Of a stretch of 64,000 bases of DNA, positions 2,195 to 34,664 are shown in pieces. The position numbers were made by a program, and so were the translations under genes. The notes under the pieces were generated by a model. It searched no databases. It saw nothing but the letters and a program-made list of their open reading frames with translations, and was not told the DNA's origin. Source of the stretch: Haliclystus octoradiatus (lineage: Eukaryota; Cnidaria; Staurozoa; Stauromedusae; Haliclystidae); the NCBI GenBank assembly GCA_916610825.1, contig OU744447.1, forward strand, positions 9,183,402 through 9,247,401, written 5' to 3'. Every line of letters starts with the position of its first letter. Position 1 is the stretch's first letter.

Positions 2195-5100
2195 TTATTC
2201 CCATGATGTTGATTCAACTGATAATTGCGATACGTTATCTAAAGAGCTCAATTGAGTAGCATAAGAATATGATGGTCCATTGCCAATAGTTGAACCTGCA
2301 CGTGTGCTGTAAGAAAAAACAAACACGAGACTGTGAAATGTAAATTTGCTATAATCAGACACCCTGTGATTATAGACTGTTGTAGGCAGAAGCAAATTCA
2401 GAAGGAGATCAATATTTTTCTAATTTATAGGCCAAAAAACCTAGATTGACAATTTTTAAATGCTCTAGGCAGATCCAGAAGGCTAAACATATTGCCAGGC
2501 ACTGCATGAAATAAGAAATTATAATCTTAAAAATTTTAAGAATATTATTATTTAATCACTTGAAGTGCTGTGCTACTTCTTTTACCAACATTGTAAATCA
2601 GTATCCTTCTTGTATTGAATAACAGTTACATCTGTCTGATGTAATGTATAATGTTACCCCTGTATACTGTGATATGTGGCCATTTCAGCAATATCCCTTC
2701 CGCGTACGGGGAATGTCGGGATCCGGAAGTTTGAGATAAATTGACCAACAATCAGAAGTTTGCACTTTTTGTAAAACAGAAAGACTGCAAGAAAATTCTT
2801 CCGATTAAGGAGGTTACACAGTATTACATAAAGACGTCAGTTTTTGCAGGTCTATCTAATACCAATCCCTGCAAAAAAAGATTACTAGTTCTTGAACTTC
2901 ATGAGTTTCCAAGGGGTTCATGAACTGTTTGTCAAAGGTGGCCCATTTCAAGTTCATGAACTGTTCATGAAAAACTCATAAAAATGGGTTGGTTTCAACT
3001 TGATGAACTCAGAAACATTTTTTCTGATATCTGGTATTAGTTAATATTACATCCTGTGAATTCGAATGGCTATGATCAATGCGGATGCTACTAAGACCTG
3101 TCAATTGTAACAATGGTGTTCATAATGACCTTATTACATTTTACAGTAAAAGAAACTACATACATTCTTAAACCGGATCTCAGTTAATCAGAAATCCATT
3201 TGGACATTTCTGTAATCTAATTGGAAATGACTGTTACATTGAGTTCATGACATGGAAACAGGGTCTAACAGATGGCTATCCTGCTTTCTTAGATTATAGA
3301 TGACAAATTCAAAAGAAATTTGACTTTTTTCTGTTTTATAGGTAAAACTTGAACACAAAAATTCAGTAGAAAATTTCTCAGATCCAGTAGAGAAATGGTT
3401 TTAACCTTATTAAATGTATCATGATAGTCAAATCTTTTAACACTAGAAATATTCGATATCAACATTTTTTAACTGCCATGCCCTTAAAATTTAAATGTAA
3501 ACTTGAACGTGACGTGACACATACAAGCTGAAATGGCATAAAAATGACAAAATAAAAGCATGGCAGTCAAATCTTTTGTAGCCATTTTGAAATTTTTTAT
3601 CTTGAATTTAATTGGTATGAAAATGATGCAGAATTCTTTGGTATGATCATATAAGTCAATCGGGAAAGAAAAAACATTTAAAATGTGACACCGGGACTAG
3701 TGCCAGGCTCTTTTCGTTCAAATAAAATGGGTCTTCTTAAAAAGGTCGGGTGTAAAATTTCTTTGCATAAATCTTAATTATTTTTGCTGATAATTGTACC
3801 TTGACATATTTGCTTGGATTCTACCGTGTGCTTTTTTTGATTGGTGAAAAAACAAAAAAGTTGTAGTGTTTTGAAGTTTCAAAAAGCAGTCACGCTCCAG
3901 CTGTTTTAGAAAGTTTCAAAACATCTGATTGAATAACTTTTTTGCTTCTTCACCAATCAAAAAAAGCACACGGTAGAATCCAAGCAAATATGTCAAGGTC
4001 CAATAACCAGCAAAAATAATTAAGATTTATGCAAAGCAATTTTACACCCGACCTTTTTAAGAAGACCCATTTTATTTGAAAGAAAAGAGCCTGGCACTAG
4101 TTCCGGTGTCACATTTTTAATGTTTTTTCTTTCCGGATTGACTTTTATGATCATACCAAAGAATTCTGCATCATTTTCATACTAAATATATTCAAGATAA
4201 AAAATTTCAAAATGGCTACAAAAGATTTGACTACCATGCTCACAATAAATAAATGATTGTCTAGATGATGACTATCTTACCATCTATGGCAATCTCCACC
4301 TGCCGTTCTCTGTCGAGTCATTTTATCTTTTCTCCCTTCAACAAATTGTTGAATTTTCGTTTGTGGCAAACGACCCCAATCCTGAACAGATAGAGATAAT
4401 TAATTTAAAGATACATCATTATCTTGATAATTATGTAGGATATAAATACATGTATTTCGGCTGCATAATTTCCCATAAATAACACCACACATCAAGACAT
4501 GAAGATAAGTGATGATTAGCTTGCTGTGTGTCTCACAATAAATGGAATGTCATGGAACACTATTACACGCACAGCCCTTATCACTAGATTTGATACATGT
4601 TATTAATTCTATAAGTTGCAATTTCAAAGTGAAAACATTTAAAAGCCTCTTTCAAACATGTTATTCTGTAAAATCTACCCTGCGTTAATAATTTATTTTT
4701 GAAAAACTGATAGTTCTAATTGTATGACACTGTACTAAAAAGTGGATTAATGATGACAACAAAATGGATACTATGAAATATATACATAATATATACATAA
4801 TGGATACATTCTGGAAGTGAAACATCACATTTCACAAACATTCAAATTGCAATTTACTGGTAAACATTAATTTCCAAAAGTCTGTGAATCTCATTATTTC
4901 TTTCACAGATCAAAATAAGAATATAAACATCATTTAATCACAACATATAAAATCAGGTTCACGAAAACAGGCCATTCAGCGCTCATGGGGTACTCTAAAC
5001 CAATCAAATTTCGAAAAAACAAAAAAATGTTTTTTGGTATGAACTAAGGTGGTCACAAAGAGTTCATAAACTCAGTACTGTTATAAACAAAATTTGAAAA

Positions 5101-8100
5101 CAATAGCTTATAATTATAGATTACCTTGATGCGTTCATATGTATCACCCACAATACTAATAAACGTGCTGAGAACGACATATATGAATAATGAGATGAAG
5201 ATGTAAAGATAAAATTTACTAAATATCCATATCATCGTATTGGTTTCGCTCATAGCTGTAAATGTTGGAAACATATCGTCACCATTTAAGAGAGAGAACA
5301 GACATTGAGCAGTGATGAAAAATTCTCTGAACTAAAAGAAAAGAAAAGAACATTTATTCATGATATTAATATATCAAAGGTAGAAATCAACTTTAGAATA
5401 ATACTTTATTTAACTTTCTATTTTTTATTTTGTAAATACTAAAATTTACCTCTTATCTTTGTTAATGTTTTATTTCCTGCTTATATATATGTATGTTGTA
5501 ATGTATAGCCTAATCAGTCATTTGAAAAAGGTTTGATGTAAACTTGAAGGTTTTTTGAATAAATGATGATGATGATGATGATGATGATGATAGCTATTTG
5601 AATTTTGCATTTTTTATTACCTTATCGTGATAAGGACCAAGAACAACCCATCCGCACAACGTAAACCCAATGAATATGAAAAGTGCGCAGAACATAAAAC
5701 GTATAAGACTTGGTGCGGCTGTTCGAAGTGTTATTAATAAAATCTAAAAAAAAGGAAACAAAGAAGTAACTGAATATGAACAGAAGTACCAGTAGACAAA
5801 AATAGGCTAACTCAAAAATATTTCAAACAAATAAATATTTCAACATCAATACCAGCAGGCTAACCATAGAAGCAAAATTGAAAATTACTTAATTACATAT
5901 CACTGTGTTGCTATCATGCATGAAACTTGTACTTTATCTTTTAACTACCAATGCAATGACTATAGGTCATTGTAGCCTACTACATACTTCCAGAAGGTAT
6001 ATGTATGAATATGAGTCTGGACAATGATGGACAAGCTAACTCTAGCAGGAATATCCAGATTTCAACATTAGCAAAATTTGAGTGAATAACTTGTTAGGTA
6101 GCAGAAGGTGTGGGAGATTGGCACACATGAACCAAAATGATGTCATTTTCCTAAAATACAATAACGCCAGCACAGGCAAGTGCAAAAAAGTATAGGAAAA
6201 ACTCAGCCTTCTTCGTTTCTACATAATCGAATATATCTTATTTGAATAGCTTCTCTTAATGGCCATTTTGAAGGTTTGCTTATTGCCCATACTTTACCTA
6301 CACTTTAATTTAATTGGGAAGCGTGCCATACGTTTCTTTTTAAAAAAGCATATGAGTAACATTTGTATAAAACATTACTATTTTAGTATTTATATAGCTT
6401 TTACAGTATTTTTAATGGTATCCATCTTTTAACGCTCTTCTCCTTAATGCATTTCTTTTAATCTTTTAAATGTTTTAAATTTAAATTTTTTATTTTTAAC
6501 TTATTTAGACTAGACCACCAATGTAAATCGCTTTGAGCAAAATTTTGGAATAAGCGCTATATAAATAATGCATTATTATTATTATTATTATTATACAATT
6601 CTATAATTTCCTAATAAACACTGAAAGGTTAAAATCTGGATGAAAATTCCATTAAGAAAGCTGAATTGGCTATATGTGTTTGAAATTATTTCCATTTTTA
6701 TTATTTCATTCTGATTTAGTGTCTTTTTGTTTTTGCTGAGTTTGAGTTGATAAGCCACATTCAATTTTTGGACTTTTCACAGAAGTTTGAAATATTTTTG
6801 GGGTCTATTTATCTTACATCTCACAAGCTTACATGCATACCTCAGCAGAAGCTCCAACTGATTAAGCTAATACTTATTCTAATACTAATTCCAATAGTTA
6901 TAATAATACATCTATCTTTGGATGAGTATGTGTGTAATTGCCATTGCAAAAAACAGTGCAGGAGTTCATGAACAGTTCATGAACGCCAAATGATTCAATT
7001 TTTATGAACAGTTCATGAACACTGAATGGTTCAATTTTCATGAACCGTTCATGAACGCTATATGGTTCAATTTTCATGAACAGTTCATGAACGCTAAATA
7101 GTTCAATTTTCATGAACAGTTCATGAACGCTAAATGATTCAATTTTCATGAACTATTCATGAACGCTTAATGGTTCAATTTTTACGAATTGTTCATGAAC
7201 GATAAATGGTTTGACTTTTATGAACTGTTCATGTATCCTTAACTGTTTTTTGCAGGGGTTAAGCTGCAAACATGCTAATGCAAAAATGAAATTCTAAGTA
7301 ATAATGTTATTAAAAAAAAATACCAATAAATAATATGGGGGTTCTGAAATCTGCTTATATTCACAATTAACTGACATCTCATATATAGTAAAAGCAACCA
7401 ATATTTCATCTTCAAACATAACACGCCATTTGAAGTCATACTAATCTGCAATTTTTGAAATCCTTCCATATCAGATACACAACCTGTTATGATAATAAAT
7501 CCAATTATACATAGCCTACTGATCTGATTTAAGTGTCATTGCATTTAGCTTACATTATATGCTTTTAAATAAGCTAAGAATCGTAACAGTCCAATCCAAA
7601 CCAAAATGACGCCAAGACCAAGAAGAATACTGCAAATATTATAGAACTCCAAATCCTACCAACAAAATCATCCAACATTATCAAAATCATTTGCATTATT
7701 AGCATTTACAGTTCCTGGAAAGTATTTTTTTCAAGGAGGGCTAAATAAACTAGTGTAGAAGAATTTCCTTCTTTGAATCCTCAAAAATACTTTTTGTTTA
7801 GCCACTTCTTTAATTTTTCCGACATATTGGATCTTGTAATTAATTTGTTGCCTTTTGTTTGATGACCATCAAATGGCCTTCAAAGATTTTCTAATAATTT
7901 TTGTTTGAACGTCATTGTCATCCCTTTTGAACCATTTCATTAAAATTTTATTCAATCCTTTCAATGCTGTGACTTCATCTGAGTTATTCTAGAAAAGTCG
8001 AGATGGTCGGGTCTGTTTAGCTGCTCTTGAAAGACTGTTTCATAAACTAAGAAAGAAACTTCTGACCAAAAACAGATCTGTTATGTGAAAGTTGTCGTCA

Positions 8101-18189: not shown

Positions 18190-19542
18190 ACTACCCGACA
18201 AACAACCTTCGCTGAACGTTAATTTACGTCCGTCCGACGCGAATGTTCTGTGAACGTTCACATAACGTTCGTATAGAACTTTCGATAAAATTTGATTATT
18301 AATACTCTTATAACGTTCAGTGAACGTTCCCTGAATAGTCTGGTCCATGAAGTTCATAAATTGCATGAACCTAGAAAAAAATGGTATAAAGCTGTATTTT
18401 ATATCAATAAAATGCTTATATCTTCCCGAGTAACATATCCAAAATCCGCTCAAATCCGCCTTGGGGAAAATGCTGTAGAGCACTTTTAAAAATTGCTATT
18501 TTTTAGTATCATCCGCCATTTCGATTGAATGTTTATATGTGAATTCTGAAACTTTTTTGCAATCCGAGAAGGTATGTTTTTAAGGAAGTAGCCGACAATC
18601 GAACTAAAAGTTATTGTTTTAATTAAACTGTTGTGTAAATAAGAAAGATTGCGTCAATCTTCCCGCGAAATAGTCCAGAAATGATGTCTTGCATAAATTT
18701 AATTTATACAACACGTGTACCTTGACTTGATCAAAAAAGTAGAAGAAGCACTGTAATTATTGCAGCTCTGCCAATCTATATAAACAAATATTACAACTAT
18801 TAATTCTTTTATAACATCTATAAATTATTATACTTAATATTAATGTGATGCGTGATTATTCTACAACGACTACAACTATATTCACACCTTGAACAAAAGA
18901 ATAAATACATTGTTATGCTGATCGCTCAAATATGTATGTGGTAAGTAATTTATGTGCATAAATGAAAAGTATTTAATAAATCTGTTAAGTAATAAAATAT
19001 GTAATGATTAACGGATGAACTTCACAACTGAAAAATTTATAACGGCAATCCACAAATAGTACGTAAACTTAGTTAATTTTTCAATATTTCACACCCTCTC
19101 CCCCTATAAGCAGCTGTACACTTTTAGATTTCCCCCTTCCGTACTGACAATTTTGCTACACCCCCTACATTTTTACAACATTTGTCTTTGTTGTTTCCAA
19201 AATTTTACAAGTGTAACGCTTTTAAAGAAAAACGAAATTTTCGCTTTCAACAATGACTATTTATAGTTTAATTTTCTGCAGCAAGTAAAATCGATTTAGA
19301 ACAATCAAGCTATGTATCTTGAGCTGAATACGGTTGTGTATAGTATTGCAGGGGGACAGGTTCCTTAATGATTCTGTTGGAGGGAAATTCCGGACCATCA
19401 TAACACATATAGCGACCTAAAACCTACAGTGTGACAACTATGGCAGTTTTGGTAAAGGTGTTTTCAATTTTTTTCAAGTTCATAATTATGGTCTTCTTTG
19501 TCATGGATTGTTTAGGTTGTTTATGAAAATCAGTACTGAATA

Positions 19543-22500
19543 ATGACAGAAATAAAGAGTGATTGCTGTGTAATATGTAATAACAATTTTGAAAGGACCG
19601 AGTCGATCAAAGTTTCCAGGAAAGGAATTTTAAGTTTAATCAATTTCTGCTTAACACGTGAGAGGTTAGAGCTACACCAATATCTTAGTAAATGTATTGG
19701 TCCCACTCACATTGATGAAGTTTTGGTGCACAAGAAATGCCGAAGAGATTTCACTGATTCAAAACGTGTTACGAAGCACAAATCTGTTTCGGAAAATGAC
19801 GTAGTAAATAATAAAAAGAGACTTCGCTCTAGCATATGTCCTTTCAATTATAAAGAGCAATGCGTGTTCTGTTCAAAATCGGCTGTCATAGATCCAAAGC
19901 ACCCTGACAGAACTGTGATATGTGCCGTACGAACTATCCCAAGCAAAAACAAACTCCTTGAACATTGCTCTACGAGGAATGATAAGTGGTCACAAGAGGT
20001 TGAGACTCGTCTACAGGGAATTATCGACTTGGTGGCAGAAGAAGCCATCTATCATAAAGACTGTCATGATCGGTTCCAATTGAATAAAATTGTACCAGAC
20101 ATGACTATATCAGCCGATAGAAAACCAAAAGGAAGACCACAATCAGAGCCTAAGATGGTAAAATTTATGTTACTATGCCAATGGCTTGAGTTAGAAGCTG
20201 GAGCTGAACTGTATACACTGTCTGAGTTGCATGAGAAAATGAGCACATTCCCTGGCTCTGGAGAAATTTATTGTTCTAAGCGACTGAAACAGAAGCTAGA
20301 AAATCACTACGGTGAATTCCTTTTCTTTGCCGATGTTAATGGGCGTGACAATGTACTATGCTTCAAAAACATGGCAAAATATATTATTAATGATAAATGG
20401 CACTCAGACAGAAAAAAAAACGCACAAGAAGAGGCAGGAAGAGTAGTTCTAGCAGCTGCAAAAATTATACGTGAAGAACTGAGAGAGGTTAAGTATGATC
20501 TCACATCATACCCAACTAATGCAGATATTGGAAACGTCGATAAAGGTATGACTTGGATACCTAAGCATCTTCAAACTGTATTAAAAGTTTTAATGCCTTC
20601 AACAACAAGAAAACAAAACAGCATTGGACATGCTATTTTGCAGGCAGCTCGACCTCGGTCAATAATATCTCCTACTTTATTTGGAGTAGGTGTAGAGCTA
20701 GACCATGTGTTTGGCTCAAAATGGCTCGTTGATGAACTATATCAACTTGGCTTCTCTGTTAGCTATCATGAAGTAACCAGGTACAAACAATCAGTTATTC
20801 AAAATGAATCCCTTGACAGTTTATTGACAGAATATATACCAGGGACATTTGTTCAGTGGGTAGCAGATAATGTGGACCATAATATTGCAACATTAGATGG
20901 AAAGGGAACATTTCATGGCATGGGTATTATCGCTGTTTCAAGTACTAAAACTAACGAGATTCCAAAATCAGTTGAATGTCACAGCATTAATAGAAAATCG
21001 ATTATCAAGGTCGAGGCTCTTGTTAAAGATAAAGGAGTTGGAATCACGCAGTATATCTATGAAGCTCAATCTGGTCTCTCCAAACTCCCTTTATTACCAA
21101 TTATACAATTGCAGAGTCCATTCGTATTGCCAAAAGAATTGTACTCTAATATACTCTGGCATTCCGCATGGATTTTCAATGAACTTTCAAGACCAAGACC
21201 AAACTGGTCAGGATATATGCAGCATTTATTTAACGGAGAACATTTTGAGAAATCGCACATTTTGATGTTGCCCATCATTGATCTTAACCCTTCTGATGAA
21301 ACTTGCATATATTCAACACTTCTCTTTATTCAAAATCAAGCAAGAAAATTGGACATTTTATCGCCCTGTATCACTTTCGACCAGCCATTGTGGCTCAAAG
21401 CAATGGATATAATTGAGACAAAGTCGTTGAATATTGTTTGTAGATTGGGTGGATTCCACACAATGATGAGCTTTATTGGCAGTATTGGTCACATCATGAA
21501 AGGCTCAGGTCTTGAAGACGTTTTGGAAGAAGGCTATGGTCCTAACGCTGTTACACATATAATATCTGGCAAAGCTATATCCAGGGCGTTAAGAGGGCAT
21601 TTCCTCGTGCAATCTGCACTGGTTAACAAACTAATACACGCATTAATTCCTCCCAATGATTCTGAAAATGAAACAACAGGATCAAGTGATGTTATAGAGG
21701 ATGCAGTATATATAGATCAAGCTCATGTAAAGGAAGGAGGAAGTAATCAACCAGAAGATACTATTGAGATACTCAAGACTGGTGATATCGATGAACTCAA
21801 GCGCATTACTTCTGATGTCTACAACAGCACTCAACCGGATCCAGTGTCTTATCATGAAAATTCAAATGCATTGCTGGCATTAGAAACATGCCTGGAAAAA
21901 TATAAAGATAAACTGGCTTCACAATCACGGACAGCAAAACTCTGGATACAATACATTGATTATATAGACATTTTGAAACTATTTATTCGGGCTGAAAGAT
22001 CCGCAAATTGGCATTTACACCTTGAAAGTATCGGTAAAATGCTTAATCTGTTTGCTGCTAGTGGTCATATAAACTATGCTAAAAGTGCACGATTATACTT
22101 GCAGTATATGAGAAAGCTAGGAAGTGATCATCCATGGCTATATAAACAGTTCACAGAACATGGTTTCCATTCTGTTAGAAGAAGCAGCCAGTTCTGGGCA
22201 GGACTATGGACAGACCTTACTATCGAACAGGTTATGATGAGATCAATTAAAAGTCGTGGGGGCCTTACAAGAGGACGTGGAATGACAGAGAGTGTTCGAC
22301 TCCAATGGATTTACAGCATGCACAAATGTGCATCTGTTCACAATGCAATGACAAACTCTACAAATTCAAAGCATAAAACAAGTGAGCAACACACTGATTT
22401 AGGAATAAGTAGAACAATTCGCGATTGTAAAGACCTTGTCAATTTTCAAACTTGGTTTGATAACCACGAGCCATTTGATGGTAATGAGAAAAGTCTTCGT

Positions 22501-24129
22501 TCTTTGGCATCTGGATTGACAGCATCGGATGGTGACGGCGTGAATTGCGACAATGCAGAACAAGTTGGATTAATGATACAACAAAAATTAGATGGATTGA
22601 CCTTGAACGAAGCATCAATTAAAAGGAAAGATCATGTTAGAACATTAGAAACTCTTCAGCCTGGTGTAACTGTTGAGAAATCGAAAATCACCCTTAATCC
22701 AACAATTCTGTTTACTAGACTCGTTGCACTGGTCCAACGAGAGGAAGATATGGTTTCTAATTTTGAATACGAGCTGACCCCTTATCCAACTTCACTGTTC
22801 AAAGGTATTATGATGAGGAAACCTAACAAAGCTCAACTTGCTAAAGACTTGACATCCGATGTGTTACATACAAACAGAACTGAAACCATGATGAATGTTT
22901 TGGACGGTGGTGCGCTAGTTCACAGAGTGAAATGGCTTAAACATGTCACTTATGCAGACATAGCTACTCAATATGTAACTTATGTACGTAGGCAGTATGG
23001 ACTATGCTGTATTGTCTTCGATGGATATGGCAATGGAGCATCAATAAAAGATCAAGAGCACCAGAGAAGGACAACGAAGACGTTGGCAGATATACAGCTA
23101 AAAGAGAATATGGAAGCTTCAAACAACCAGCAAGCATTCTTGAGCAACACGTTCAACAAGAAGCAATTTATATCTCTCCTCTCCCGCTACTTAATGACAG
23201 ATGGTCAGATAGTCTATAATAGTGATGGAGACGCAGATACTATGATTGTAATGCATGCTGTTCGTTTTGCTAAAGAAGGTATGTCTGTTACCGTAATAGC
23301 GGATGACACAGACGTGCTGGTCCTATTGATTCATCATTGGCAAAAAGATATGGAGGATATATATTTCAGATCAGAGGCAAGGAAAAAACAAGAAAACATA
23401 TGGAAAATCAGCGATATCATCAACTCCATTGGCACCACATCCAAATATCATATTCTATTCATGCATGCTTGGTCTGGTTGTGATACTACATCTGCCACTT
23501 TTGGTCATGGAAAAACTGTTTTACTTAAAAAGCTTATTCAATCAAATTGGCTACAAAACTTGTCAAATACTTTTTATAGAGAAAATGCTACTTCTCATGA
23601 CATTAGTAAAGCAGGTGCACAAGTTTTCCTTACACTGTATAGGGGTAAATCAATGTCTTCCTTGAAGAAACTTCGGCACAAGAAATTCATGGAAATTATA
23701 ACATCTGGTAATTCTGTACTTGATCCTCAGAAATTACCACCTACAGATCGTGCAGCAGATTTCCACAGCCTAAGAGTACATCTTCAGTTAATCATCTGGA
23801 AAAATCTCGACGAAGCTGCTCTGGACCCAACGCAATGGGGATGGAAGAAAGAGAATTCAAATTTGGTACCAATCATGACAGACCTTCAAGCAGCACCTGA
23901 TCATCTTTTAAAATTTATACGCTGCAAGTGCAAAATGTCCTCTAAAAACCCTTGCGCTAATAACATTTGTTCCTGCCGCAAAAATGGATTGAAATGTGTA
24001 ACTGCTTGCGGTGATTGCATGGGAGAAAGCTGCTGCAATTCAGATACTGCAATCGTAGATGAAGATAAAGAGAGCAACAACATAAATATTGATACTGAAG
24101 AGGATATACCTAGCATTGATAATTGCTGA
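19543..24129 (+). CDS. Transposon-encoded protein: zinc-binding N-terminus, PIN/XPG-like nuclease core, CXC C-terminus
   Basis: An uninterrupted 1528-residue frame without introns. The N-terminus has two related Cys/His modules: CCVIC (about residues 8-12) with VHKKCRRDF (about 63-71), then CVFC (about 106) with YHKDCHDRF (about 169-177). A long helical middle has no recognised fold. Acidic motifs of a PIN/FEN/XPG-like nuclease follow in order: IVFDGYGN (about 1153), SDGDADTMIV (about 1227), ADDTDVLVLL (about 1253) and HAWSGCDTTSATFGHGK (about 1307). Residues about 1463-1498 form a CXC (tesmin/TSO1-type) zinc domain, CKCK...PCANNICSCRKNGLKC. Similar multi-copy proteins are widespread in invertebrate genomes and usually unannotated. 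The lack of stops suggests recent mobility or retained function. Cutting DNA during transposition is the likely role, but this is inferred. Confidence 0.8.
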   Translation: MTEIKSDCCVICNNNFERTESIKVSRKGILSLINFCLTRERLELHQYLSKCIGPTHIDEVLVHKKCRRDFTDSKRVTKHKSVSENDVVNNKKRLRSSICPFNYKEQCVFCSKSAVIDPKHPDRTVICAVRTIPSKNKLLEHCSTRNDKWSQEVETRLQGIIDLVAEEAIYHKDCHDRFQLNKIVPDMTISADRKPKGRPQSEPKMVKFMLLCQWLELEAGAELYTLSELHEKMSTFPGSGEIYCSKRLKQKLENHYGEFLFFADVNGRDNVLCFKNMAKYIINDKWHSDRKKNAQEEAGRVVLAAAKIIREELREVKYDLTSYPTNADIGNVDKGMTWIPKHLQTVLKVLMPSTTRKQNSIGHAILQAARPRSIISPTLFGVGVELDHVFGSKWLVDELYQLGFSVSYHEVTRYKQSVIQNESLDSLLTEYIPGTFVQWVADNVDHNIATLDGKGTFHGMGIIAVSSTKTNEIPKSVECHSINRKSIIKVEALVKDKGVGITQYIYEAQSGLSKLPLLPIIQLQSPFVLPKELYSNILWHSAWIFNELSRPRPNWSGYMQHLFNGEHFEKSHILMLPIIDLNPSDETCIYSTLLFIQNQARKLDILSPCITFDQPLWLKAMDIIETKSLNIVCRLGGFHTMMSFIGSIGHIMKGSGLEDVLEEGYGPNAVTHIISGKAISRALRGHFLVQSALVNKLIHALIPPNDSENETTGSSDVIEDAVYIDQAHVKEGGSNQPEDTIEILKTGDIDELKRITSDVYNSTQPDPVSYHENSNALLALETCLEKYKDKLASQSRTAKLWIQYIDYIDILKLFIRAERSANWHLHLESIGKMLNLFAASGHINYAKSARLYLQYMRKLGSDHPWLYKQFTEHGFHSVRRSSQFWAGLWTDLTIEQVMMRSIKSRGGLTRGRGMTESVRLQWIYSMHKCASVHNAMTNSTNSKHKTSEQHTDLGISRTIRDCKDLVNFQTWFDNHEPFDGNEKSLRSLASGLTASDGDGVNCDNAEQVGLMIQQKLDGLTLNEASIKRKDHVRTLETLQPGVTVEKSKITLNPTILFTRLVALVQREEDMVSNFEYELTPYPTSLFKGIMMRKPNKAQLAKDLTSDVLHTNRTETMMNVLDGGALVHRVKWLKHVTYADIATQYVTYVRRQYGLCCIVFDGYGNGASIKDQEHQRRTTKTLADIQLKENMEASNNQQAFLSNTFNKKQFISLLSRYLMTDGQIVYNSDGDADTMIVMHAVRFAKEGMSVTVIADDTDVLVLLIHHWQKDMEDIYFRSEARKKQENIWKISDIINSIGTTSKYHILFMHAWSGCDTTSATFGHGKTVLLKKLIQSNWLQNLSNTFYRENATSHDISKAGAQVFLTLYRGKSMSSLKKLRHKKFMEIITSGNSVLDPQKLPPTDRAADFHSLRVHLQLIIWKNLDEAALDPTQWGWKKENSNLVPIMTDLQAAPDHLLKFIRCKCKMSSKNPCANNICSCRKNGLKCVTACGDCMGESCCNSDTAIVDEDKESNNINIDTEEDIPSIDNC

Positions 24130-24330
24130 AATGATTGTAAACTTGGGTATTTTCAAACATGAACATTGGACAATTACAGGGAACTTATTGAGACATTTAT
24201 TTAACTTTGCAATATATAAAAAATATATGTTGATAGAAGTGACAGTTTTGTTAGTATAAAGTAATATTTATAGAATATGTCTTTACATTATATACATCGC
24301 AATAGCCTTCCCGCATAAAGCTCGTAGTAA

Positions 24331-24336
24331 AATAAA
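24331..24336 (+). promoter_or_regulatory. Polyadenylation signal of the transposon ORF
   Basis: AATAAA, about 200 bp past the stop at 24129 and inside the right terminal repeat boundary. Confidence 0.5.
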
Positions 24337-25259
24337 GTCATTCACGTTGTCTTTATATCTATTTTTGTTGACTATCTTAAATAGTCTTTATATACTATCT
24401 AATTATTAAATTCATATTCTGTTTCATCAAAAGTATTTTCAACATGACAAATCTTCTTTTGGACATCTATTAGCGATATATCTACATTTGTTAGAACGGA
24501 ATTCCCAATATCAATTGTTTAGCGATGACGTCATTCACTTAAAAGGGATGAAAACTTAAATCTTCTCTAGAATTTTTTGCCCAAAGCGGATTTTTGCGGA
24601 TTTTGGATATGTTGTTGCAGAGACTGATGTGGGTAGAATAAAAAAAATTCCAGCTTTATACCATTTTTTTCTAGGTCAAAATCTCTATGTACCAGACTAG
24701 AACGCCAGTCATATTTCAAGAACAACGATTTTTTTGTATTGCATTTAAAGCAAGATAATATGTGGGATACTTCCTAATTTCAATAATTTTATTACAGCTT
24801 ACATGATAATCGTAATGTTAGCTGTACGTTGCTACCGCGGAAAGTTTTGTATATGGTTCCTGATTTATTTTGAATTTTCTTTCGTTTTAGCAGAAATCCC
24901 TGGCCACGTTCAACTGTTGCGCCAAGCGATCCAAGGAGGACGACGGAGGTCCATCACAAAAAGATTTTATTTTCTACAAATTGCCCATATTTACGAAGAT
25001 AAATTAATGAGATAAAATTTAATATATATATATATATATTATCATTCGTTAATATTGAAGAGAGTTTTATCTATTTATTTTCAATAATTTGTCTTCGTCA
25101 AGTTGATAATTAAATCTTCTTTGCTTGCTAATCAAAATGTTTGCTTGAAAATCAAAGAAACAAAAGATTAGCTGATCATGAGCAGCCGCAAATAACAAGC
25201 GACTCGGAGAAAACGAATGCCTCCCTAGTATTACTTATATTTAAACTTAAAGACCATAA

Positions 25260-26230: not shown

Positions 26231-27197
26231 CGAAACTCTTTAAGAAAAACAATTTTATCAAAATGATATAAAGTATAATATATATATCATGATATAAATA
26301 TTATCTCTATATTAATATCAAAATATGTAAAATTAGCTGAACTATATCATCAAATAAATAGTAATGCTAATTATGTGTATATAATTAATTAATACAATTT
26401 GCAACATGCTACATAAATATTATATTTTCCTTCTCACGCAGAACTTTCCCGCATTTGTCCGAATTGGACGTTCAGAGAACGTTCTGTAAACGTTATTTGG
26501 ACCTATAAAAAATGTTCAGTGACTGTTTATTAGATATCTACACTCGAACGTTCGGTGAACGTTCGCTGAAGTTCCGAATGAACATTCCACGAACGTTCAG
26601 CGAACGTTCGCTGAACGTTCGTTGTTTGCCGGGTAGTCACGTGATTTCATTATTTGAACCTTGTGACAGATATCGATCATCTACTAACGAATCTAGTAAA
26701 ACTACAATTTTTACGCCGATGAAAAATCGATAAAATTAGATTCAGAAAGTCAACTCCTTCATTCGAATTTTCATTTCATTCTAGAAACCTCAGAGATTAA
26801 ATTAAGATTGTTTCTGACTCTGCATTTTTAGCATCAAGCACTGCATTAAAGCAGATAAGAAAAACTCTACTTTTATATTACACTGGCAATATTGGTTATA
26901 TGCCCGCGTTGATGACTTGCGGAGACGTAAATTATCCCCAATTTGCTTTATTGTAAATTCCGTAGTTGAATAATGTAAGTGAAGTTTCGTACGTTAAATA
27001 TATGAATCGATATAATTGCATGTGGTTGTACCGTTAGTTGCAGGCCCAGGCCGTTATCGCGCGTCTGAATGCTCAATACAAACACAAGCACGTAGTTATT
27101 ATAGACTGCAAAATATGCCTGCAGCTTAACGCATTTGAGAGAAACAGCAATAAATTTGTAAAAGCATTTTCAAGTACAAGTTTACCCACTTTTAAAT

Positions 27198-31223: not shown

Positions 31224-31340
31224 TGGAATTGCCCATTGATAGTTTCCAATGGTTACAATTCTCTACTAATTATCTACATTTATCTTACGCAATGGAAAAT
31301 TGTAACTTTAAGTAATTTGCACAAATTTTGTTTATACTTT

Positions 31341-31347
31341 CAGAATG
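31341..31347 (+). promoter_or_regulatory. Splice acceptor immediately before the USP24 start codon
   Basis: tttgtttatactttCAG|aATG places a good 3' splice site one base before the ATG. The mRNA 5' end therefore comes from an unseen upstream leader exon or from a trans-spliced leader. Confidence 0.55.
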
Positions 31348-31843
31348 CCTGATCTACATAATGTGGAACCAAGCGATGAACAAATTACAACCCTACTTGG
31401 TATGGGATTTGAAGATATTGAGCAAATCAGACGTGCTCTATCTTATGCCAAAAATGATCTAAATGAAGCGGTATCATTTCTAACGGGGGAAGATACCCAA
31501 CGTCATGAATTCGGTAGTGTCGTACCAGATCTAGAATTAAAAGAGACTTTCACATCACATGAACCAAGACAAAGTCATCTAGCATGTGAACGTGACGAAG
31601 CGGCACCAGCTCGACCACCATCTTATGATGATATTGTATCTAATTCTCAAACATCTGCTGTGAAAATAACGGAAAGTTCACAAGATTACAGTATCAATAT
31701 TGATAATATCCCTGATGAATTTCCAATAAGTGATTTGTACGAGTTGGAAAATCAAATTTCAAGCGATAATTGGTCAATTCCTTATAAAATGGACGAATCA
31801 CTTGGAAAGTGTTTGCTTAGTAGTCTCAAATTAACAACACAAG
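31345..31843 (+). CDS. USP24: USP24 exon 1: UBA domain and PPxY-like linker
   Basis: Residues about 10-48 form a UBA fold with the MGF loop ([16 protein letters not shown]) and the [10 protein letters not shown] helix. Next comes a proline box RPPSYDDI, as in vertebrate USP24 (PPPAYHEV). The exon ends in [22 protein letters not shown], which opens the helical repeats. The start is the only Met in frame after the acceptor at 31343. Confidence 0.93.
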
Positions 31844-34664
31844 GTAACAATAAATAGATTATTTTGTTAGCTATTCATAAAGTTCAAATAGTTAACTTCA
31901 GATTAGAGATCTGTGAATCCAATCCGATCCAACAATAATCCGTCGGATCGGATTAATTTTGTAAATTGAAATTATGAAGTATTTTCACTTTCCTTGATGT
32001 TAACAGATGTTGAACACTTGAACTATTTGCCTACTATTTATGAATTTAATATTCTTTAGTTATTAGTTGTTATACATTATTTTATTTCTCTATTGTCCTA
32101 AATGGATAAAAAGATTATTTACTATTCGAATTTTGTTGGATCAGATTAGATTTACAATGTGAAGTTTGAATATTTTGGATTAATTATATTAAATAATTTC
32201 TGAAACTCAGAGACTATTTCTAACAGTGTTGTTTTGCGTTGTGCTTCTATTCTGTAGGCATATGCGATCAAGATCCAAACTATGAGAGATTTCAAAGCCG
32301 TGCTCTCCCTGGATGTTTCCACAAAGTAAGTTAGAATCTACTGAAAAATATTTTTCAAAGTTATGATTGATTCTGATGTGTATCAATTGAAGAAATTACA
32401 TGTGGCAGTGATAAACATATTGAAATTGTCAGCATCTTGATGTGTCTGTTTAAGATAGATGTTCGTTAGGATAGGTTCAAATTTGTTTGATACAAAATTT
32501 ATTATTTACGTCACGAAAATAACTGCGGTCGCAGGAATATACTATTTAAAACATCGATATCTCCGTCATTTCTTATCAGTTCAGCTTTTACCAAACAAAT
32601 TTTCAGTTGATATACATCAAAATCAATCATTGCGGCTACCGCTTTGGCAGATAACTTTGACCTCATTCTGAATAAATCTCAATATTACACGCAACCTCAT
32701 TCAATAATTGCTTAATATAATTTTTATATATTTATTATAGCTTATGGCATCCACTGCTGTTCGTCGTTGGAGTCAAGAAACTCAAGATGGTGTTTTTTTA
32801 GTTACACAGTTGTTTATTGATCTAGTTGCATGCCGACTCACTTTTGATCCCATTCCGCTTGCTCTGATTGATGTACTCACGGAAGTAAGTATCTAGTATA
32901 TAGATTAAGCCAAGGATTAGGTACACATTTTGATACTGTTTCTTACAAAGGTGAGCTTTGTGCACTAATCAAACAGTTAAACTAATTACTTATTCAAAGT
33001 TCTTTAATATTAGGAATAACGATGATGATTAGGGCCACAGGATGGGCATAAGTGGGGTAAAGGCCCCAGGAAAATTATTGTCCTCACAAGGTGTTCTTAA
33101 TTTGAAATAAAAGAAAATTCAATGCCCAAATTTGCAAAAATTATTCGGATTGAAATTTTTCTTTGCCCGTCTTGGTAATGATGGATATTGACATTGAGCA
33201 CTGTTTTACTGCTACCACGTAATATCTCATAGAATTTATATTTTGAGAAGCTAATTACGGTATTTATTTCTTGGGAGCTAATAATAATTTATATTTTGAG
33301 CAATCTTGGGAGGATTAGCTCAAATAACAGAGCAAGTCAAATTCAGATCTGAAAAATCTTAATTGTGACTACGGCTTTATTTTAATCAAGATTTAGCAGC
33401 TAACTGAACAACCAGATAGCTCATTCCAACCACACACTCAGCTGACTGACAAGTGAACAATTTTATCTAGTTATCTTATTGCGTTAAAACAAATTTATCT
33501 TGTAGGTATTTGATGCTGATATTGAATACCATTACAAAAATAGATGTCGACGATGGAACCGAACTCATTACGAAGATGTTTTTGGATTTCAAAAGTGTCC
33601 TGCTGTTAGTCCATCATATAGTAGCTACAGAGTAAGAAACAACAACAAATTTTTCTCATTACTGATTTCCTGCAAAAAACAGTCCAGGAGTTCATGAACA
33701 GCTCATGAATGTTAAATGTCCTCAATTTTCATGAACCCTCGCAGACAGTTGATGAACAGCTTTTTGCAGTGGTTATTTGAATGTGTCACATATTAATCAG
33801 TAGTAATACACTGCAACCAAGCTCAAACACTCAACTTAGCTTTAACATAAATAAAACCAACTGCATGCTAATTGGTTCCAAATACTTTAACAATAGTACT
33901 CTGAATGTTGAACTAAATGACTCTCATATAAAACAAGTAGACATAATAAAATATCTTGGCTTAAAAATTGACAGTATCCTTAATTTCGATGTCCACATAG
34001 ATCAAATCATTAGCAAAGTCAACAGGGGTCTGGGAGTTCTAACATACAGCTGTAAATTTTTACCTATTGAAACGAGGAAACTTTTGTTCAACGCTCTTGT
34101 TTTGCCACATTTCAACTACTGTGCTGTTGTCTGGGGGAACTGTATGAACAAGCACCTCGATCGCCTCCAGATACTACAAAATAGAGGCATGAGGACGGTA
34201 CTCCAATGCCACTACAGGACTCCTGTCTCAGACATGCTTAGGCAACTTAACTGGCTCAGCGTTAGAGACAGGGTGAAACTCAACCAGCTTTCCTGGGTAC
34301 AAAAAATTAAATTTCAGAAAGCTCCTCCTCTGTTAACCACATTCTTCTCTTCTGCATTAACCACCAAAACACGATCCTCAACCAATAATGACATCTATAT
34401 CAAACAAAGCTATCGTCACTCTTTCCAATCAGGCGGTGCTTGTTTGTGGAACGGTCTGCCATCCTCGATGAAAGCGATTGCTGACAGTGCCATTTATAAA
34501 GAAAAATGTAAATCATATCTATATATATCGAAATAATAATTATATCCATGTATTCTAATTAATTAGCTTTTAATCTTTATATAATTTTTTTTTTATTAAA
34601 TGTATTATTCTGTATGAGCCCTTTGTAAAAAAGCCGGAAATGGCTTATAAGGTATACTCAATAA

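Follow-up and report, generated by a model that had tools for sequence, protein, structure and literature searches.

The window analysed here, a stretch of 64,000 nucleotides from contig OU744447.1 of the staurozoan Haliclystus octoradiatus (positions 9,183,402 to 9,247,401), carries on its forward strand a transposon of 6364 bp (window positions 18336..24699), which is delimited by its ends, a target duplication, other copies in the genome and empty sites at three of those other copies. The trinucleotide GAA flanks the element exactly on both sides (18333..18335 and 24700..24702); its ends read TAGTCTGGTCCAT at the left and, inverted, TAGTCTGGTACAT at the right, and the terminal inverted repeats of 13 bp (18336..18348, + strand, and 24687..24699, - strand) match each other at 12 of 13 bases. 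Inward of these repeats are more inverted blocks, two of them identical at both ends: one of 26 bp (18369..18394, the reverse complement of 24651..24676, no mismatch), which is a possible binding site for the transposase, and one of 18 bp (18432..18449, the reverse complement of 24596..24613), the left member of each being on the + and the right on the - strand. No tandem repeats were found around the element. Clusters of the palindrome AACGTT / GAACGTTC occur at 18215-18330, adjoining the insertion site, and at 26477-26620, 1.8 kb past the other end.

The element contains an open reading frame (ORF) of 1528 codons (P0001; 19543..24129, +) with no internal stop. The boundaries, the exact duplication, the undisrupted ORF and the completeness proposed in a preliminary description of the window were all borne out. 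Near its N-terminus the predicted protein has paired Cys/His modules (amino acids 9-178; 19567..20076, +) whose cysteines and histidines are conserved in alignment A1 and which may bind DNA, although no Pfam family was found over the cut-off for them in the three proteins scanned. At the C-terminus there is a tail with nine invariant cysteines (amino acids 1461-1499; 23923..24039, +). The preliminary description had called this tail a CXC domain; the cysteine spacing and the alignment agree with that, but in the Pfam scan of five tails the CXC models (Tesmin/TSO1, preSET_CXC) stayed below the cut-off in three and did not match the window's own tail, for which reason we call it only CXC-like. 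Invariant in an alignment of six groups are these nine cysteines, seven acidic residues of the C-terminal part and the residues D442, D613 and E895, and other acids (D445, D452 and D891) are equally invariant there. The protein by itself gave nothing useful against Pfam and the PDB, and a whole-protein profile had no matches in the PDB.

The part of the protein with the clearest affinity is a nuclease domain of the FEN1/EXO1/XPG type (amino acids 1094-1439; 22822..23859, +), in which a profile match to EXO1 and the fold matches of a structure model agree on the fold and on the cluster of active-site acids (D1121, D1160, D1230, D1232, D1255, D1257 and D1314). The PIN/XPG-like core of the preliminary description is upheld, as an XPG/FEN1-like domain, by the profile and by the structural comparison that it had recommended. 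The sequences are distant, with about 12-13% identity to FEN1, EXO1 or XPG, and the Foldseek superpositions have root-mean-square deviations of 8-25 Å over the whole chain despite good E-values.

The middle of the protein (amino acids 436-900; 20848..22242, +) is probably the core of a DDE transposase, of the RNase-H type and with a helical insertion. A low-confidence structure prediction places strands and helices in the RNase-H order and puts D442, D613 and E895 in the DDE positions; the top rows of the core's VIA list are integrase cores, and the same list also holds glucokinase, MreB, Spt6 and an Avs3-bound terminase. Our confidence is lowered by the fact that most of the RNase-H strands and the E895 helix are modelled at pLDDT < 50. 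The core model had no Foldseek match at E <= 0.001, and the core profile none in the PDB. One might suppose, as the preliminary description was inclined to, that the transposase is simply the nuclease domain and that no DDE enzyme resides in the middle region, given that the nuclease is the only part of the protein with a strong fold match and that the core model is weak. We consider this quite improbable in view of the order of strands and helices, the placement of the acids and the integrase cores at the head of the list; moreover, no FEN1-type enzyme is known to join DNA strands. Academ is also listed among the superfamilies with a DDD/E transposase in two papers (PMC9587614; PMC9004415). 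The remark in the preliminary description that the design is not a classic DDE one is therefore probably wrong, and its proposal that an RNase-H fold would refute an Academ assignment was ill-posed, since Academ itself is so listed.

Other copies were sought in the 262 Mb of the genome (33 contigs, the window included). The left-end query gave 17 long matches, that of the window among them, plus one of 81 bp, and the right-end query gave 17. Twenty stretches were fetched, and both ends could be inspected in 15 copies, two of which were dropped before counting (L020, as part of a rearranged composite, and L034, which has lost its left end); L021, L030, L036 and L037 were composite or had a single end only, and L038 gave no match. 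An exact 3-bp duplication is present in 11 of the 13 counted copies, and L031 and L035 have one mismatch each; since shuffling of the right flanks produced a mean of 1.3 exact duplications and reached 11 in 0 of 100,000 trials, this is more than chance would give, and it extends to further copies the 3-bp duplication of the preliminary description. When the two flanks of each copy were joined, uninterrupted empty sites were recovered for three of the 13 sites (L023 at 33 places, L029 at five and L025 at two), and none was recovered for the other ten among the 40 of 1290 candidate places scored. The sequence into which L023 is inserted is repetitive, recurring in near-identical form at no fewer than 33 other places in the genome. 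The flank of the L033 insertion resembles, by eye, the end of an ORF of a long interspersed nuclear element (LINE).

The copies also speak to the age of the activity. The full reading frame is kept in three of them, that of the window and those on contigs C11 and C7, from which the window copy differs at 16 of 6364 and 72 of 6361 bases, respectively. Raw counts of codon changes, made with no model, are 19 non-synonymous and 22 synonymous against the C7 copy, 6 and 3 against the C11 copy, and 15 and 13 against L024; the first of these suggests constraint on the protein, and the other two are too few to read. Two further copies, L032 and L033, have common internal deletions by which roughly codons 482-958 are gone, and they differ from each other at only 2 of 4658 bases while lying in unrelated flanks with different duplications. 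Because they are without the core catalytic residues and have nonetheless spread recently, their transposase must have been supplied in trans. The DNA transposon of the window is complete and has been mobile recently, and the earlier wording "possibly active" can be strengthened to probable recent activity on the evidence of three intact ORFs, near-identical copies and a derivative that has spread.

With respect to classification, the nuclease of AcademX elements is of the XPG type. AcademX, a lineage of Academ (Kapitonov and Jurka 2010 and Kojima 2020, as cited in PMC4455052 and PMC10045372), is characterised in PMC10045372 by a nuclease and duplications of 3 or 4 bp, and AcademH by a helicase and duplications of 9 or 10 bp. 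The element of the window encodes a nuclease and makes 3-bp duplications, and an assignment to AcademH is rejected on the duplication length. No helicase appeared among the Pfam matches at E <= 1 of six proteins, an absence of little force given that other parts of these proteins match no family either. We estimate at about 80% the probability that this is a DNA transposon of the AcademX type, autonomous and moving by cut-and-paste, and we file it, by duplication length, nuclease and probable DDE core, as a new family of a kind that is itself already in print (PMC10045372); the Academ-like placement of the preliminary description is supported on the same grounds. The filing relies on these features, and a different, unnamed DDE superfamily might have acquired an XPG-type nuclease independently, much as Kolobok and other superfamilies are described in PMC9587614 as having taken up several nucleases. 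A DDD/E core, a nuclease and 3-4 bp duplications together are, however, the combination published for AcademX, and we regard such an independent origin as very improbable. Narrow searches of open papers found no mechanistic study of Academ, nor any paper in which "Academ" and "XPG" both appear as whole words.

The same genome harbours six or more additional related groups (L017, L018, L039, L040, L041 and L042), several of them with open frames of more than 1400 amino acids. Five are at 34-38% identity, and the decayed L042 is at 45-58% over open fragments. The elements L017/L044, L018 and L040 start with TAGTC and are flanked by exact 3-bp duplications (in L017 and L044 the element begins one base inside the edge of the stretch read); a mechanical scan did not find the ends of L039, L041 and L042. 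L054 belongs with these groups as well, and beside the L041 transposon there is a frame of 533 amino acids (L041:6203-7801, -) with an integrase core and an H2C2 zinc domain. No relatives outside this genome passed tblastn in collections of viral and genome contigs, which hold no eukaryote genomes as such and lend the result little weight.

An indication of how these elements move comes from contig C11 (L020 plus L021; G000:C11:5758366-5771096), where two copies, one of them partly inverted, form a composite with a 3-bp duplication at an internal target. It begins with TAA and a full element (A), followed by CTG, an inverted segment that runs from position 5433 to position 1, CAG, the positions that continue to 6364, and TAA; the CTG and CAG are the readings on the two strands of the 3-bp target at 5431-5433. 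The composite is best read as a transposition with the ends of two sister copies. After replication, the transposase would have brought together the 3' end of one sister copy and the 5' end of its partner, released the two from their flanks and integrated them within one of the copies; the CTG/CAG pair and the identical outer TAA would both follow from such a course of events. The full element A is distinguished from Y, the broken element, by 2 positions; the two share all 16 of the differences between A and the window element and have in common a base at 5082 that is absent from the window and from the five other copies readable there (L023, L024, L025, L027 and L029).

Several points weigh against this reading. 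Most of the 16 shared differences are also found in L023 or L022, and A differs from the unlinked L023 at only 3 of 6321 bases, so that the closeness of A and Y, with their 2 differences, is not in itself proof of a sister origin; the base of Y at 5354 is common to L027 and L029 and not to A; and the composite is one locus in one assembly, made of near-identical copies. An assembly error or an inversion unrelated to transposition might account for it, and we consider that unlikely, though deserving of serious attention, because each of the two inner junctions coincides exactly with an element terminus and they share a 3-bp duplication, both outer flanks are TAA, and A and Y share the base at 5082. 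Ectopic recombination is disfavoured by the same exact junctions and duplication. Replicative self-insertion of a single copy can be set aside by reasoning, since insertion into the template would break it there, leaving no route to the intact copy. Read as sister-end transposition, the composite favours excision over copying and, if confirmed, would supply physical evidence for excision and for the use of two copies' ends. Alternative transposition of this general sort is known for maize Ac/Ds (PMC3744419, PMC4270019).

Excision rather than copying is the probable mode of movement. The zinc modules and the inverted subterminal blocks might bring the ends together; the DDE core would cleave the ends and link their 3' strands to the two strands of the target at points 3 bp apart. 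The 5' strands might be left to the fused nuclease, which would either cut the second strand or remove short 5' flaps where the element meets its new flanks, and host repair would fill the 3-base gaps. In the TnsA/TnsB pair of Tn7, a DDE enzyme for the 3' strands works with a second nuclease for the 5' strands. We propose tentatively, and regard as possible but rather doubtful, that AcademX is a one-protein analogue of that pair: a cut-and-paste machine with two nucleases in a single chain, the DDE core acting on 3' strands and the FEN1/EXO1-like domain on 5' strands, able to pair the ends of sister copies as in the C11 composite. The genome supplies what is needed to set up a working assay, namely copies that are intact and close to identical, derivatives mobilised in trans, and ends that are defined. 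What an XPG-type nuclease does within a transposase can thereby be put to the test.

Elsewhere in the window, a frame at 31312-31857 (+) has a UBA domain (Pfam E 2.5e-9) and presumably resembles the N-terminus of USP24, and a frame of 251 amino acids at 33781-34536 (+) resembles, on visual inspection, the final part of a LINE reverse transcriptase, with no Pfam match at 0.01.

Compared with systems already described, the element of the window has in common with AcademX a nuclease in the same element, duplications of 3 or 4 bp and, here probably, a DDD/E transposase, while AcademH, placed in the same superfamily, has a helicase and duplications of 9 or 10 bp, against 3 bp here and no helicase family among the Pfam matches. 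Its nuclease domain has the fold and the aligned acids of FEN1, EXO1 and XPG (the Rad2 family) and, unlike those enzymes, is joined to a transposase that a mobile element encodes. Alternative transposition of maize Ac/Ds resembles the C11 composite in that the ends of two separate copies are used in one event and give rise to rearrangements; Ac/Ds belongs to another superfamily, and in C11 the target is internal to one of the participating copies, with only one product seen. The likeness to Tn7 TnsA/TnsB is an analogy only: the strands would be divided between two nucleases in the same manner if the proposed mechanism is right, but Tn7 is bacterial, its activities reside in two proteins, and its second nuclease has another fold.
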